In this document: positions 18,991 to 50,575 of the stretch, piece by piece | Position numbering within the stretch: position 1 is the stretch's first letter | How the letters are laid out: each line of letters opens with the position of its first letter | Source of the DNA: Flavobacteriales bacterium | GTDB lineage: Bacteria; Bacteroidota; Bacteroidia; Flavobacteriales; Flavobacteriaceae | Assembly (NCBI GenBank): GCA_027065715.1 | Contig: JAMONO010000016.1 | Location: 1-52,378 of the forward strand | DNA: 52,378 bases | Direction of reading: 5' to 3' | Notes under the pieces: generated by a model | Database searches by the model: none | The model's input: the letters and a program-made list of their open reading frames with translations, nothing else | What the model was told of the DNA's origin: nothing | Position numbers and translations under genes: made by a program

Positions 18991-19310
18991 AACAAGGCAG
19001 TTTTGTCGCATTTACGTCCACCGATTAATATTGGAAATTGCCAAAAAATAAAGATTTCTCACTGCGTTCGAAATGAACACTTTGTTGTTTAATATGTTGA
19101 TTAACAGTATGTTGCTATTGTGAGGGGCGAGACACGAGCGCCGTGGCAATCTTTGGTTTTTGTGTCGGTTTATTGAATTAGATTCTTCACTTCGCTTTGC
19201 TCCGTTCAGGATGACAGCACTTCGATAGGCGTTATTAGTCGTTTCAATGGGTATCTTATGAAACATGTCTTGAAGTATCGGCATATCTCCCGAAGTATCG
19301 GGACATCGAT
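18991..19310 (+). repeat. Dispersed modular intergenic repeat, copy A
   Basis: This non-coding sequence fills most of the 468-base gap between two convergent genes. It contains three short modules in order: TTTCTCACTGCGTTCGAAAT (19054-19073), a hairpin-forming unit ending CCGTGGCAATCTTTG (19112-19154) and GATTCTTCACTTCGCT...CCGTTCAGGATGACA (19181-19215). The same order occurs at 34401-34668 (opposite strand) and 50261-50575. Short open frames within it, with RSEES-like translations, are by-products of the repeat. Confidence 0.85.
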
Positions 19311-34400: not shown

Positions 34401-34668
34401 ATCGATACCCCGATATTTAAGGAGATGTATTGTGAAATACCCATTGAAACGGACGAACGACACCTATCGAAGTGTGTTATTCAAAACGGAGTAACAGCGG
34501 TGTCGTATTCAGAACGGAGCAAAGCGAAGAGAAGATTCTAATTCAATAAACCGACACAAAAACAAAGATTGCCACGGTGCTCGTTCCTCGCACCTCGCAA
34601 TGACAATAAACAGTTAATCAGTATATTAGATAACAAAGCGTGTCATTTCGAACGCAGTGAGAAATCTT
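34401..34668 (-). repeat. Dispersed modular intergenic repeat, copy B (inverted)
   Basis: This is the minus-strand version of the repeat at 18991-19310, with the same three modules in the same order. It shares the unbroken segment TCGGTTTATTGAATTAGA with copy A. It fills the 374-base gap between the convergent DUF151 and GMC genes. Open frames inside it (for example a plus-strand frame at 34569) encode repeat by-products such as HFERSEKS and are not genes. Confidence 0.85.
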
Positions 34669-34744: not shown

Positions 34745-36433
34745 CTACAAAACCGATTTTATAACATCGGCTACTCTAAAACTATTGGCATAAATAGTCC
34801 ACGTATAAGTAAGACTACCACCGGTAGGCATAAAACTACCGTCGGTAATATACAGGTTGTTTACTTCGTGTGCCTTACAATATTTGTCCAATACACTTGT
34901 TGCCGGATCATTTCCAAAACGGCACCCGCCGGCTTGCAAGTTGTTGGGGGGGGCTCCGCTTATACCGGCATACACATTTCGGGCACCGATTTTTGATAGT
35001 ATTTGTTTGGCTTTTTCGGATATAATACCGGCAACTTTTAAATCGTGCGGGTGGTAACCAACTCGTATCCGAGCCACCGGATCGTTCCATTTGTCTTTGA
35101 TATTGCAGTCTAAACTTACAAAACAATTATCGGTGGGCAACCAATCGACAAAAATTTCAAATTTGAGTTTTCGCAGTCCGGTAAAATAATTTTTCAAATG
35201 TTTTTTTAAAGTTTCACCGTAACGCAAATTGCCCTTATCATTCCATTTTTGTCTTATGGCTTTTGAAACAGGATTGGCATGTTCAAACAAAAAATCAACT
35301 GTGCCGCCTTTTATTTTTTTTCCGGTATCGGGGTCGGTCAATTCATAATAATCTTGAACGGTTCTATTGACAAATACCCCGGGTCGAGCAAGTTCACGGG
35401 CTATATCGGGCGATAAATCATCGTAATATAAATCACCTCCGCCTACACCACCGGCAGAAAAAATTAGATTTTTGCCTACTTGTTTGTTATTGTTGGCAAG
35501 TCCTTGTTCAAATTCTTTGTTTTTGCTCATCAACAGCAGTCGTGAGGTTTCAACGGCTTGTGCCGCTACTACAAATATTTTGGCTTTGATATATTGTTTT
35601 TGTCCGATGGCATTGTAATACCAAGCTTTTTTGACGGTAAACTTTCCATTGGTTTCCAAATGATAAACTTTGGCATTGGGTATAACGGCACAATTACCGG
35701 TTTTCAGTGCTTCGTGAATCAACGAAACGCGAGAACTTCCTTTGGCGTCGGAAGAACAACCGTAACTACCGCAAAAATTGGAATAATAACAGGCATTACG
35801 GTCTCCTTTTTTTTGCGACAAAATGGCACGTGGCATTGGTATGGTTTGCACCCCCAAACTTTTTGCCGCTTGATCGATCCATTTTGAAACGATATTTTCT
35901 TGCAAAGGAGGATAAGGAAAATCGGGCGTAGAACGCGGTTCGGCAAAACGATGTTTTATCACTTTGCCCGATATACCTACGATACGTTCCACTTTTTCGT
36001 AATAAGGCTCCAAATCGTAATAATCGATAGGCCAATCGGCTATATTGGCACCTTTAATTTCGCCGTAGGTAGAGAGCAACTTAAAATCGACGGGTTTAAA
36101 CCGTGCAAAATAGCCACTCATAAAATTGGAAGAACCGCCAACGCAATTGCCGTTCCAAAAATCGCGACCGGTTTCGTAGGTTGAACGGGCTTCCCAATTG
36201 CCTTGTTCATTCAAATCTTCTATTACCTGTGGTTCGTCTTTCAAATTGGGCGTATAGACACTGCGTCGGGTGGCAGTCATTTCGTCTTTGCTGAAATCTT
36301 TGGTTCGATACCAAGGACCTTTTTCCAACACAACTACTTTATAACCGGCTTTTGACAGTTCATAAATTACAGGACCGGCTCCGGCGCCGCTTCCTACCAC
36401 ACATACATCAAATATTTTGTCGGACAACTTCAT
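34745..36433 (-). CDS. GMC family FAD-dependent oxidoreductase
   Basis: The 562-residue flavoprotein has an N-terminal dinucleotide fold (FDVCVVGSGAGAGPVIYELS, residues 8-27) and the GMC segment NGNCVGGSSNFMSG. The C-terminal domain includes SVLDKYCKAHEVNNLYITDG and IYANSFRVAD. Three cysteines (C215, C221, C226) sit where FAD-glucose dehydrogenase relatives bind a 3Fe-4S cluster. The usual catalytic His of the H-x-x-G motif is replaced (LQAGGCRFG), and the Asn-Pro of the second site reads LTYTWT. It overlaps the small-subunit gene by 4 bases. It is probably a periplasmic dehydrogenase of a sugar, sugar acid or alcohol; the substrate is unknown. Confidence 0.88.
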   Translation of the reverse strand: MKLSDKIFDVCVVGSGAGAGPVIYELSKAGYKVVVLEKGPWYRTKDFSKDEMTATRRSVYTPNLKDEPQVIEDLNEQGNWEARSTYETGRDFWNGNCVGGSSNFMSGYFARFKPVDFKLLSTYGEIKGANIADWPIDYYDLEPYYEKVERIVGISGKVIKHRFAEPRSTPDFPYPPLQENIVSKWIDQAAKSLGVQTIPMPRAILSQKKGDRNACYYSNFCGSYGCSSDAKGSSRVSLIHEALKTGNCAVIPNAKVYHLETNGKFTVKKAWYYNAIGQKQYIKAKIFVVAAQAVETSRLLLMSKNKEFEQGLANNNKQVGKNLIFSAGGVGGGDLYYDDLSPDIARELARPGVFVNRTVQDYYELTDPDTGKKIKGGTVDFLFEHANPVSKAIRQKWNDKGNLRYGETLKKHLKNYFTGLRKLKFEIFVDWLPTDNCFVSLDCNIKDKWNDPVARIRVGYHPHDLKVAGIISEKAKQILSKIGARNVYAGISGAPPNNLQAGGCRFGNDPATSVLDKYCKAHEVNNLYITDGSFMPTGGSLTYTWTIYANSFRVADVIKSVL

Positions 36434-37029
36434 AGTTGTTTTAAGTCGGTTATAATGATATTTTCGTTTTTTCTTTGCAAAATTTCGGGATATTTATTAT
36501 AATTTTCGGGACGTGGTTTGCCCGGAACATGATGCAAAAATCTCCAACCGATTTCGTGTGTATTAATACCGTAAACAGGGTCTAACAACATGGCTTCAAA
36601 CAATATGGTTAGTAATTTTGAAACCCAATTTTCGCCCCAAGGTTTGGACAAGATAAACTTAATTAGCTTTTCTTGTTGCTTTCGACTGAGCAATAAAAAA
36701 TCGTTCTCAAATTTTTCTTGTGCCGTTTCGCGTATCCAACCGATACCGTTTATTATAAATTGTTGTTCGTCGGGGTCTATTAACGGGTCGGTTAAATAGT
36801 TGTTTAAATGTTTTTCAACTTTGATGTCATAGATGTCGGGACCGGGTTTGGAAGGAAATAATATTTGCAAAACATTGTTTATAACAAACTGGTTATCAGC
36901 CGATAATATACCTTTGTAAATTGTGGGTTTGCAAGATTGCCAGACCGGAAGTTGTAACAAAACTGCTGTTGCTCCAACTCCTTTTATAAATTGTCTTCTG
37001 TTGAATGGAACCCGATTTTTCATATCCAA
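36430..37029 (-). CDS. Gluconate 2-dehydrogenase subunit 3-like protein (Tat-exported)
   Basis: The 199-residue protein begins with a twin-arginine signal (NRRQFIKGVGATAVLLQLPVW), followed by a cysteine (QSC) that could be a lipoprotein site. The mature part has the subunit-3 features: a helix around VINNVLQILFPSKPGPDIYD, and HEIGWRFLHHVPGKPRPENYN. In known enzymes this subunit accompanies the flavoprotein and allows its export. Its stop overlaps the start of the GMC gene (ATGA). No cytochrome c subunit is nearby, so the electron acceptor is unknown. Confidence 0.87.
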   Translation of the reverse strand: MDMKNRVPFNRRQFIKGVGATAVLLQLPVWQSCKPTIYKGILSADNQFVINNVLQILFPSKPGPDIYDIKVEKHLNNYLTDPLIDPDEQQFIINGIGWIRETAQEKFENDFLLLSRKQQEKLIKFILSKPWGENWVSKLLTILFEAMLLDPVYGINTHEIGWRFLHHVPGKPRPENYNKYPEILQRKNENIIITDLKQL

Positions 37030-37104
37030 ATTTAATAAAAATATGCTTTTGCAATAATTTGAAAGTGGTCAAAGAGCAAATTTGATGCATAATACAGCAA
37101 AACA

Positions 37105-37147
37105 GGGTGAGAAATCTTATCTTTTAAGACTTAATGATTTCTCACCC
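37105..37147 (-). terminator. Terminator after the EF-hand gene
   Basis: A perfect 12-bp stem (GGGTGAGAAATC 37105-37116 / GATTTCTCACCC 37136-37147) with a 19-base loop. It lies 53 bases downstream of the EF-hand stop codon on the minus strand, followed by TGTTTTG. Confidence 0.65.
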
Positions 37148-37199
37148 TCAATGCCGTAGAGATTTTATTTCGGAATAAAATTTTTTTTTGGGGGATTAA

Positions 37200-37781
37200 C
37201 TATTTACCGCATTTTCCTTCGCCACATTTTCCTTCGCCGCACTTCATTTTTTTGGTTTCTTTTTTCATTGCTTCACCGCACTTTCCTTCGCCGCACTTCA
37301 TTTGTTTTTTTGAAGCTTTGCCTTTAAAATCCATAAGTTCTTTTTCGGTCATATTGCCGTCTTTGTCGGCATCAATCATATCAAAAATAGCTTCATGTCC
37401 TTTTACAAATTCGTCTTTATCGACAAAATCATTACCGTCTTTGTTCAATTTATCAAACATACCACATTCGTCTTTGGTTATTTTGCCGTCTTTATTTTTG
37501 TCTTTTGCGGCAAATTCGGTTTCATGAAATTTTACAAACTCGTCTTTGCTTACGGTTCCGTTTTTATCCAAATCCATTTGGGCATAAGTTTCTTCCTTTT
37601 CTTCAAACATTTCTTTATCGGCAGCCTCTTCTTCTTTTGCCGCTTCTTTTTGAGCCGGACTTTCTTGTACTACGGACTGTTCGGTTTTTTGTTCTTTATT
37701 TTCTCCGCATGAGGTAAAAAATACAAAGCCGGTCATCAAAATAGTCAAAAAAGCTATTCCGGTAAGATTTAAATTTTTCAT
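37200..37781 (-). CDS. EF-hand lipoprotein with C-terminal EGKCG repeats (candidate MNIO-type RiPP precursor)
   Basis: The 193-residue protein begins at 37781 (MKNLNLTGIAFLTILMTGF), with a lipobox at FTSC (C25). An acidic Glu/Lys linker follows. There are four EF-hand loops: 70-81 (DLDKNGTVSKDE), 94-105, 113-124 (degenerate, N at position 1 and no Gly at 6) and 137-148. The last 33 residues are Lys/Cys/Gly-rich and contain EGKCG three times (165-169, 183-187, 188-192). EGKCG is the pentapeptide modified to a thiooxazole by MNIO/DUF692 enzymes in copper-binding bufferin and oxazolin precursors. The calcium sites are clear; RiPP identity is inference because no MNIO gene is nearby. The frame is open to 37874, but a -7 element at 37811-37818 supports the start at 37781. 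Confidence 0.85.
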   Translation of the reverse strand: MKNLNLTGIAFLTILMTGFVFFTSCGENKEQKTEQSVVQESPAQKEAAKEEEAADKEMFEEKEETYAQMDLDKNGTVSKDEFVKFHETEFAAKDKNKDGKITKDECGMFDKLNKDGNDFVDKDEFVKGHEAIFDMIDADKDGNMTEKELMDFKGKASKKQMKCGEGKCGEAMKKETKKMKCGEGKCGEGKCGK

Positions 37782-39977: not shown

Positions 39978-41924
39978 ATGAAAAAACTATTATTTTTTGG
40001 AATGTTGCTCATGGGCACAACCATTTTTGCTCAAGACCTTCCTACCAATCCCGAACCCGGAAAGTGTTACGTTCGTTGTAAAACTCCGGAAGAATGGAAA
40101 ACAGAAGAGGTAACCATTGAGGTATCTCCTTCTTATACCAAGTATAAGACCCATCCGGCACAATACAAAACCGAAACCGAAACGGTTGTTGTGCGTGATG
40201 CGTATCAAAAATTAAGTGTTGTACCTGCCAAATACGGCACCGAAACCTTTGAAGTGGAGGTAACCGGACCTTCCAAAAAAATCAAAAAAACACCGGCTTC
40301 ATACAGCAAAGGTTATACCGAAGTGGAAGTAAAAACTCCTGCCAAAAGTTTATCGATTGTTCCCGCCAAATTGGGTACCGAAACTTTTGAAGTGGTTGTA
40401 AAAGGACCCGGCAAAAAAGTTGAAGTTATACCTGCCAAATACGAAACCGTTTATGAAGAAATAGTAGTGCAAGAAGCCTATAAAAAACTGGTAAAAGTTC
40501 CGGCTGTTTACAAAACCGTTACCGAAACCGTTGTTGTGCAACCTGCCACTTACAAATACAAATACTATCCTGCCAAATTCGGAACCGAAGAGGTTACCAT
40601 TCCCAAATTTGACGGCGGCAAAAAAATGAAAGTCATACCCGCCCAATGGAAAAAGGAAACCATCAGTTACTTAAAAAGCGAAAAAGGTTCCAAACTCAAA
40701 GTGGTTCCCGCCAAATTTTCAACCGATTATCAAACCATTGAAGTAGCTCCGGCTACTGCCAAGTGGGAATTGGGAGCCAAATCGCCCGATTGTGAGTCGC
40801 CCGACCCCAACGATTGTCGCGTATGGTGTTACAAAGAAACACCTGCCAAATTTGAAACCGTAAAAGTTACCAAATTGGACAGTGATGCTCGTGTTGAAAC
40901 CATACCCGGTTGTAAAACCATGGGCGAAAAAGGTTGTGTAACCGGTACTTATACCAAAACCACATTGGTTACACCCGAAACCACACAAGTTATCGATATT
41001 CCTGCAACGACTACGGTTGTTAAAAAAGTGGTTATGGTTGAACCGCCGCGTGCCGAAAAAATCATGATACCCGAAGTAACCAAAACATACAAAAAAGTGG
41101 TTATGGTAAGTCCGCCTACCACCAAAGAAATCACTGTTCCCGCAGTTACCAAAAAAATTAAAAAAGTGGTTATGGTTGAAGAGCCCAAAGTTATTATTAA
41201 AGATATACCGGCTGTAACCAAAACTTTCAAAAAAACCGTTATGGTTGAAGAGCCCAAAGCTATTTATAAAGACATACCGGGCAAAACCCAAAAAATTGCC
41301 GTTACCAACGTAACCCCTCCTTCTTACGAATTGGTAGATGTACCGGGTGCAACCAAAACATACAAAAAAACCGTTATGGTTGAAGAACCCAAAGCCGTTG
41401 CCAAAGAAATACCCGCCAAAACTGCAGTTATCAAAAAAACAGTGGTTGCCAAAGATGCTTGGGCTGACAGCGAAACCGTTCCTGCACAATACAAAACCGT
41501 CAAAAAACAAGTGTTGGTTAAAAAAGGCGGTTTAACCCAATGGCGTGAAATCGATTGTAAACTCGTTACTTACAATCCGCTGCCAATTAACTGGCCCTTG
41601 GGAAGTGCAACGCTTACACCACAAGCCAAAAAATTAATCGATACCCGTTTGATCCCTGCGATAAAAGCCAATCCGGGTGTAAAAGTTGAAATTGCTTCGC
41701 ATACCGACTCGAGAGGTTCGGCCGTAAGTAATCAAAAGTTGTCCGAAAGACGCGCACAAGCCGTTGTCAGATATCTGGTTTCAAAAGGTATCCCCGCCGA
41801 CCGTTTGGTTGCCAAAGGTTACGGAGAAACCAAATTGTTAAACAGATGTAAAGACGGAGTGAAATGTAGCGAAGCGGAACACAGAGTAAACCGACGAACC
41901 GAATTCAGAATGTTAAGCGAATAA
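39978..41924 (+). CDS. OmpA-family protein with 23-residue repeats
   Basis: The 648-residue protein has a signal peptide (1-19, ending IFAQ) and ends in an OmpA peptidoglycan-binding domain (residues ~538-648; VEIASHTDSRGSAVSNQKLS, KGYGETKL, EHRVNRRTEF). Between them are about 18 beta-type repeats with a strict 23-residue period. The [VI]PA landmark falls at residues 59, 82, 105, 128, 151, 174, 197, 220 and 243, and again at 341, 364, 387, 410, 433, 455, 478 and 501. Each of the two blocks is opened by a C-x3-C pair (C30/C34 and C280/C284). It is probably an extended periplasmic or outer-membrane structural protein fixed to the wall. The fold and partners are unknown. Confidence 0.88.
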   Translation: MKKLLFFGMLLMGTTIFAQDLPTNPEPGKCYVRCKTPEEWKTEEVTIEVSPSYTKYKTHPAQYKTETETVVVRDAYQKLSVVPAKYGTETFEVEVTGPSKKIKKTPASYSKGYTEVEVKTPAKSLSIVPAKLGTETFEVVVKGPGKKVEVIPAKYETVYEEIVVQEAYKKLVKVPAVYKTVTETVVVQPATYKYKYYPAKFGTEEVTIPKFDGGKKMKVIPAQWKKETISYLKSEKGSKLKVVPAKFSTDYQTIEVAPATAKWELGAKSPDCESPDPNDCRVWCYKETPAKFETVKVTKLDSDARVETIPGCKTMGEKGCVTGTYTKTTLVTPETTQVIDIPATTTVVKKVVMVEPPRAEKIMIPEVTKTYKKVVMVSPPTTKEITVPAVTKKIKKVVMVEEPKVIIKDIPAVTKTFKKTVMVEEPKAIYKDIPGKTQKIAVTNVTPPSYELVDVPGATKTYKKTVMVEEPKAVAKEIPAKTAVIKKTVVAKDAWADSETVPAQYKTVKKQVLVKKGGLTQWREIDCKLVTYNPLPINWPLGSATLTPQAKKLIDTRLIPAIKANPGVKVEIASHTDSRGSAVSNQKLSERRAQAVVRYLVSKGIPADRLVAKGYGETKLLNRCKDGVKCSEAEHRVNRRTEFRMLSE

Positions 41925-50260: not shown

Positions 50261-50575
50261 TAGGCAGTTTTACCGCATTTTTGTCCGCCGATTAAGATGC
50301 TGTTGCTAAAAAAAGAAAGATTTCTCACTGCGTTCGAAATAACATCATTTATTGCGTAATTCTTTGATTAACAACACGTTGTTATTGCGAGGTGCGAGGT
50401 ACGAGCACCGTGGCAATCTTTGTTTTTGTTTAACGATTTAGATTCTTCACTTCGCTGTCGCTCCGTACAGAATGATACAACACCGTTCCGGATGACAAGC
50501 TTCAATAGGTCTGCCCGTTTCAATTGAAATCTTAAAACATTGGGACATCGTATTATTTTCGGAAGCATCGGGGAC
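50261..50575 (+). repeat. Dispersed modular intergenic repeat, copy C
   Basis: This is the third copy of the repeat at 18991-19310, same strand, within the 450-base gap between convergent uppP and the TonB-like gene. It carries the initial GGCAGTTTT..CCGCATTT and CCGATTAA segments shared with copy A. TTTCTCACTGCGTTCGAAAT is at 50321-50340, the GAGGTGCGAGGTACGAGCAC unit at 50389-50408 and GATTCTTCACTTCGCT at 50441-50456. No gene is present. Confidence 0.85.

Follow-up and report, generated by a model that had tools for sequence, protein, structure and literature searches.

Analysis of the window (the whole stretch of 52,378 nucleotides that was analysed, from a 2.22 Mb Flavobacteriales assembly that is 95% complete) showed a lipoprotein gene at positions 37200 to 37781 of the minus strand, coding for a protein of 193 amino acids, with its stop codon at 37200-37202. 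The lipoprotein signal peptide (37707-37781, minus strand) carries the lipobox FTSC at residues 22-25, with the predicted acylated cysteine at residue 25; the lipobox was identified by eye from the sequence and is conserved, and Leu15, Gly18 and Cys25 were near-invariant in 18 homologues. A compact EF-hand domain (residues 63-160; 37302-37595, minus strand) was delimited from Pfam, the alignment and AlphaFold2, and contained four loops starting at residues 70, 94, 113 and 137. The loops at 70, 94 and 137 were canonical, the three canonical sequences being DLDKNGTVSKDE, DKNKDGKITKDE and DADKDGNMTEKE, and the loop at 113 (NKDGNDFVDKDE) was degenerate. The loop-to-loop spacing was compact (24/19/24), and all EF-hand loops were kept across the 18 homologues. 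The Pfam EF-hand matches were above the gathering cut-off for PF00036 (46.4 vs 25.4 bits) and PF13202 (43 vs 25.9 bits), with a best E-value of 1.6e-12. AlphaFold2, run with the 18 homologues, gave a compact EF-hand domain with a pLDDT of about 90 over approximately residues 63-160, while residues 160-193 were unstructured with a pLDDT below 50. The protein is thus predicted to be both a bacterial lipoprotein and an EF-hand protein. One cysteine outside the tail, Cys106, which closes EF loop 2 (DEC; 37464-37466), was invariant in the 18 homologues and is a possible disulfide partner or metal ligand.

The closest solved folds of the EF-hand domain model were the lanmodulins (8fns, TMt 0.73), which are likewise exported and have four compactly spaced loops. 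In lanmodulins, loop position 2 is Pro and position 9 is Asp; neither residue occurs there in any of the three canonical loops. Membership of the lanmodulin family was rejected despite the fold match, since these loop features were lacking and the NF053806 model reached 27.5 bits against a cut-off of 135. The window protein also differs from lanmodulin by its cysteine-rich tail and lipid anchor.

The disordered Lys/Cys/Gly tail (residues 161-193; 37203-37301, minus strand) was delimited by NF050137, the motif positions and pLDDT. It contained EGKCG at residues 165-169, 183-187 and 188-192, and its cysteines were at positions 163, 168, 181, 186 and 191. The NCBIfam model NF050137 "KCGExKCG_twice", an HvfA-family domain, scored the tail at 29.7 bits, above its curated cut-off of 19.5, and 8 of 18 homologues matched it at E<=0.01; the full-length HvfA equivalog NF050188 gave no match for the window protein at E<=0.1. 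At least one EGKCG arose in only 0.165% of 20,000 whole-protein shuffles and three in none, and tail-only shuffles never produced three. Across the 18 homologues, the final Cys-Gly of the tail was invariant and the last two KCG units were conserved, while the count of KCG units differed between species. The tail residues stay while synonymous codon positions vary, which argues for selection on the tail as protein. An earlier reading made from the sequence alone had described the lipobox, the four EF-hand loops with one degenerate, and the three EGKCG motifs, and this description was confirmed by the sequence, Pfam and NF050137. The separate conservation of EGKCG number and EF-hands that it had raised was also borne out, the number varying independently of the EF-hands in the 18 homologues.

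Downstream of the lipoprotein gene, on the same strand, were a gene for a Gluconate_2-dh3 protein (dh3; 36430-37029; PF13618, 7.1e-11), a small subunit of FAD dehydrogenases with a twin-arginine (Tat) signal, and a gene for a GMC (FAD) oxidoreductase (34745-36433; PF05199, 8.2e-18). A perfect 13-nt inverted repeat with a 19-nt spacer (37104-37148) lay between the lipoprotein gene and dh3. It was rejected as a terminator, as it had no T-run and no terminator was called, so that read-through into dh3 may occur. No Rfam element or riboswitch was found upstream of the lipoprotein gene. A mobile origin was also rejected, with no plasmid match and no viral relative. Elsewhere in the window, the dispersed repeat GTCATTTCGAACGCAGTGAGAAATCTT was present in three copies with at most one mismatch (19051-19077, 34642-34668 and 50317-50343; 0 expected by chance), and it is possibly a miniature mobile element.

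The gene order was followed in 20 homologous loci, made up of 11 loci of the genus and nine outside it (L116, L123, L124 and L128-L133). The KCG tail was retained in all 20, and dh3 was immediately downstream of the lipoprotein gene in all 20; outside the genus, dh3 was recognised by BLAST in eight loci and by position and Tat motif in L116. The GMC gene came right after dh3 in all 11 genus loci, including one fusion. Outside the genus it was next or nearby in three loci (L124, L129 and L130), five loci (L123, L128, L131, L132 and L133) kept the tail and dh3 without an adjacent GMC gene, and L116 stopped at the contig edge. The conserved operon ties the lipoprotein genetically to a periplasmic flavoprotein dehydrogenase. 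In the fusion (L087:3381-5636), Gluconate_2-dh3 and GMC form one natural open reading frame, which supports both proteins working as one complex.

The nearest solved relatives of the GMC protein were the large subunits of FAD glucose dehydrogenase and fructose dehydrogenase (8hdd/6a2u, E about 7e-41), so that it is most simply read as an ordinary periplasmic dehydrogenase of sugars or alcohols. Its subtype is rare: a search of 395 genomes from the phylum gave no further match at E<=1e-100. Further along, several loci carried genes for an OmpA-cytochrome c protein and a small cytochrome c. The likeness to FAD glucose/fructose dehydrogenase complexes thus covers the GMC large subunit, the Gluconate_2-dh3-type Tat small subunit and, in several species, a nearby cytochrome c. 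The window operon differs in being led by an EF-hand/KCG lipoprotein, and the cytochromes of its relatives are short monohaem or OmpA-fused proteins. Upstream of the lipoprotein gene, an ECF sigma and an anti-sigma gene were found in G001, G004, G006 and L116, and an anti-sigma gene only in G009. Relatives of these genes precede HvfA in the MNIO-bearing clusters of G065, G097 and G295, and also in G060. The sigma pair and the cytochromes were missing from the window species, with no sigma/anti-sigma remnants in the 324 bp upstream; both have been lost there, and the operon is therefore not uniform. A 648-aa OmpA-domain protein elsewhere in the window (39978-41924), whose N-terminal half consists of repeated "P-A-K/T" type segments (e.g. 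VPAKYGTETFEVEV), shares only the OmpA domain with the operon's OmpA-cytochrome proteins.

Of the 13 genus genomes, 11 had a full-length orthologue of the lipoprotein; G007 and G008 carried a second, HvfA-like KCG protein instead, so that no genome of the genus is without a KCG protein. When named genomes were scanned, more homologues turned up among other Flavobacteriales, Saprospiraceae and MAGs labelled Chlorobiota. In the Saprospiraceae homologues (L129 and L130), KCG blocks flank the EF-hands on both sides and the whole unit can be duplicated; the tandem genes at L129:1-1913 alternate KCG and EF-hand blocks, with up to 15 KCG units per protein. Genome G012 carries a KCG-less EF-hand lipoprotein paralogue (L018:1480-1992) alongside the tailed copy, which marks the tail as a detachable module.

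The sequence-only reading had proposed that the tail may be converted by an MNIO enzyme acting in trans, with no MNIO gene inside the window, and the latter point holds. The MNIO profile PF05114 gave no match in the window genome or in 12 other genus genomes, and an order-specific profile, made from six of the order's own MNIOs, found nothing in the 13 genus genomes even at E<=10. All genus genomes are MAGs, nine of the 13 being at least 90% complete. MNIO was also absent from the nine further homologue-bearing genomes, those of the non-genus loci named above (0/9; completeness not given). For DUF2063 (PF09836), the HvfC-type partner, nothing exceeded the cut-off in the 13 genus genomes; the sub-threshold, stop-interrupted fragments that appeared were rejected. 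YcaO, the other classic Cys-heterocyclising enzyme, was absent from the genus. The DoxX-like partner that had been suggested was likewise not found in the window genome as an HvfX-type gene. An HvfX-family gene (NF050144, over the cut-off) did occur in 7 of 13 genus genomes (e.g. L021:920-1791, L013, L016, L020 and L091), never beside this lipoprotein; in six of the seven it adjoins the second HvfA-like KCG protein, forming a minimal hvfA-hvfX operon without hvfB or hvfC.

The same searches worked in the positive control. NF050137 was found in ten of 296 genomes of the order; nine of these lie outside the genus, eight of which have a full-length MNIO, and MNIO adjoins the KCG gene in the control loci that were examined. 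The exception, G060, has sigma, anti-sigma, an HvfA-like protein and HvfX without MNIO. This genome (locus L102) is 99% complete and belongs to another family, and G086 of its own genus has MNIO, so that oxazolin operons without MNIO may have more than one origin. Among Buf_EGKCG genomes, 67 of 2,583 are without MNIO and 97% have it (PMC12452194, Table 3), and the present lineage falls in this small minority of EGKCG carriers. A lack of MNIO here and in the genomes of close homologues is the outcome that the sequence-only reading had itself named as its refutation. With neither MNIO nor DUF2063 in the genus, it is very unlikely that a known MNIO modifies the tail in trans; the other option in the sequence-only reading, a tail that binds metal unmodified, survives.

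The linker between KCG units also differed with the presence of MNIO. In CGxGKCG, x was Glu in 19 of 19 linkers from MNIO-bearing genomes and in 35 of 80 from MNIO-less genomes, where it was also Asp, Ala, Asn, Thr or others; this contrast (Fisher p about 3e-6) is uncorrected for relatedness and is correlative only. Relaxation of the linker Glu, with the cysteines meanwhile conserved, is expected if enzyme recognition has been lost.

The reading favoured here, at a probability of roughly 55%, is that the lipoprotein is an MNIO-independent relative of oxazolin (HvfA), in which a Ca-type EF-hand lipoprotein carries an unmodified thiol metal-binding tail beside a periplasmic dehydrogenase. The protein would sit in the cell envelope with a flexible tail of K-C-G-x-G-K-C-G repeats, and its EF-hand domain, judging by the loop sequences, would hold Ca2+. 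The tail cysteines would remain unmodified and coordinate a soft metal ion as plain thiols, with Cu(I) the most plausible candidate in view of what EGKCG proteins bind. The lipoprotein might then buffer metal near the periplasmic redox enzyme, protect it under metal stress, or otherwise serve the dehydrogenase. The proposal builds on the architecture of the protein, the homology of its tail to NF050137, the absence of MNIO, DUF2063 and YcaO, and the conservation of the operon; its weakest step is the suggested tie between metal binding and the dehydrogenase. The published -4 Da chemistry on the EGKCG tail of the NedA lipoprotein counts against it, such tails being modifiable when MNIO is present (PMC12636315), as do the MAG status of all genus genomes and the uneven make-up of the operon; a fast-evolving or novel enzyme may also act on the tail.

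In a less likely reading, which we hold as tentative, function lies in the EF-hand domain and not in the tail: the lipoprotein would bind Ca2+ (or a lanthanide) as an accessory to the dehydrogenase, and the tail, rich in lysine and bearing cysteines, would serve as an anchor or redox linker (e.g. through disulfides). The conservation of every EF-hand loop in the 18 homologues, the compact loop spacing, the KCG-less paralogue in G012 and the closest fold, lanmodulin, being a periplasmic EF-hand protein all point this way. Against it, none of the 20 loci has lost the KCG tail, which in Saprospiraceae is multiplied, with KCG blocks on both sides of the EF-hands, and the LanM model fell far below its cut-off.

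Modification or oxidation of the tail by some other enzyme is improbable. By its position, the first candidate would be the dh3/GMC flavoprotein encoded in the operon, acting on the exported tail instead of MNIO and its partner. Its support is positional: all 20 loci have dh3 directly after the lipoprotein gene, and most also have GMC. The order of sigma/anti-sigma, KCG protein and enzyme genes also parallels that of sigma/anti-sigma, HvfA, HvfB and HvfC, and the GMC subtype is rare in the phylum. However, the GMC protein resembles sugar dehydrogenases and is accompanied by cytochromes, as for an ordinary periplasmic dehydrogenase, and five non-genus loci keep the tail and dh3 without an adjacent GMC gene. 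The Tat signal on dh3 would furthermore place the reaction in the periplasm, unlike known RiPP enzymes. The fuller form of this idea, in which the sigma-controlled dh3/GMC pair stands in for HvfB/HvfC, oxidising or charging the cysteines of the exported tail and giving an MNIO-free second route to EGKCG metallophores made or working outside the cytoplasm, is regarded as highly improbable.

An orthodox oxazolin, in which an MNIO gene at another place in the genome supplies the enzyme that forms 5-thiooxazoles in the tail, agrees with the NF050137 match, with the MNIO modification of the lipidated three-EGKCG NedA (PMC12636315) and with the 97% of 2,583 Buf_EGKCG genomes that carry MNIO (PMC12452194, Table 3), but it is largely refuted and very remote, as MNIO was found in 0 of 13 genus and 0 of 9 other homologue genomes, the DUF2063 partner that HvfB needs (PMC13419390) is absent, and the motif Glu is relaxed.

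Compared with known systems, the lipoprotein resembles the HvfA oxazolin/captophorin precursor (Buf_EGKCG; NF050137, NF050188) in being exported, in its repeated KCGEGKCG and in the related ECF sigma/anti-sigma genes ahead. It differs in that the genus has no HvfB (MNIO) or HvfC (DUF2063), dh3/GMC occupying their place, and in having four EF-hand loops ahead of the motifs and a relaxed motif Glu. The lipoprotein would work like the MNIO-modified oxazolins, yet by the features tested it is not a member. The Buf_EGKC|EF-hand_5 chimaera (example WP_187711723.1) is also exported and has EGKC motifs fused to EF-hands. By its published definition, this class starts with the EGKC part, beside a membrane helix, continues with two EF-hands and occurs with MNIO genes, whereas the window protein is a lipoprotein with four loops, a C-terminal tail and no MNIO, and falls outside this class. 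NedA, the lipidated oxazolin of Neisseria dentiae (PMC12636315), is likewise a lipoprotein with three EGKCG; it comes with an MNIO and a partner (NedBC), its modification (-12 Da) has been demonstrated, and EF-hands are not described there. The EF-hand/EGKCG domain order here is opposite to that of the published chimaeras, which occur with MNIO, and the published lipidated EGKCG protein also has one. The dh3/GMC association is unmentioned in the MNIO survey, and the literature search gave nothing relevant on KCG/EF-hand proteins with GMC or dh3.

Automatic annotation now labels EGKCG proteins as "oxazolone/thioamide-modified RiPP metallophore". In the present lineage, all genomes retain such tails and none has the modifying enzyme or its partner, so that either the motif has an MNIO-free function or a second enzyme exists, and the EGKCG motif alone is no proof of modification. 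This natural system makes the role of unmodified EGKCG repeats directly testable, and the EF-hand/EGKCG fusion gains a conserved partner open to biochemistry, a periplasmic flavoprotein dehydrogenase.
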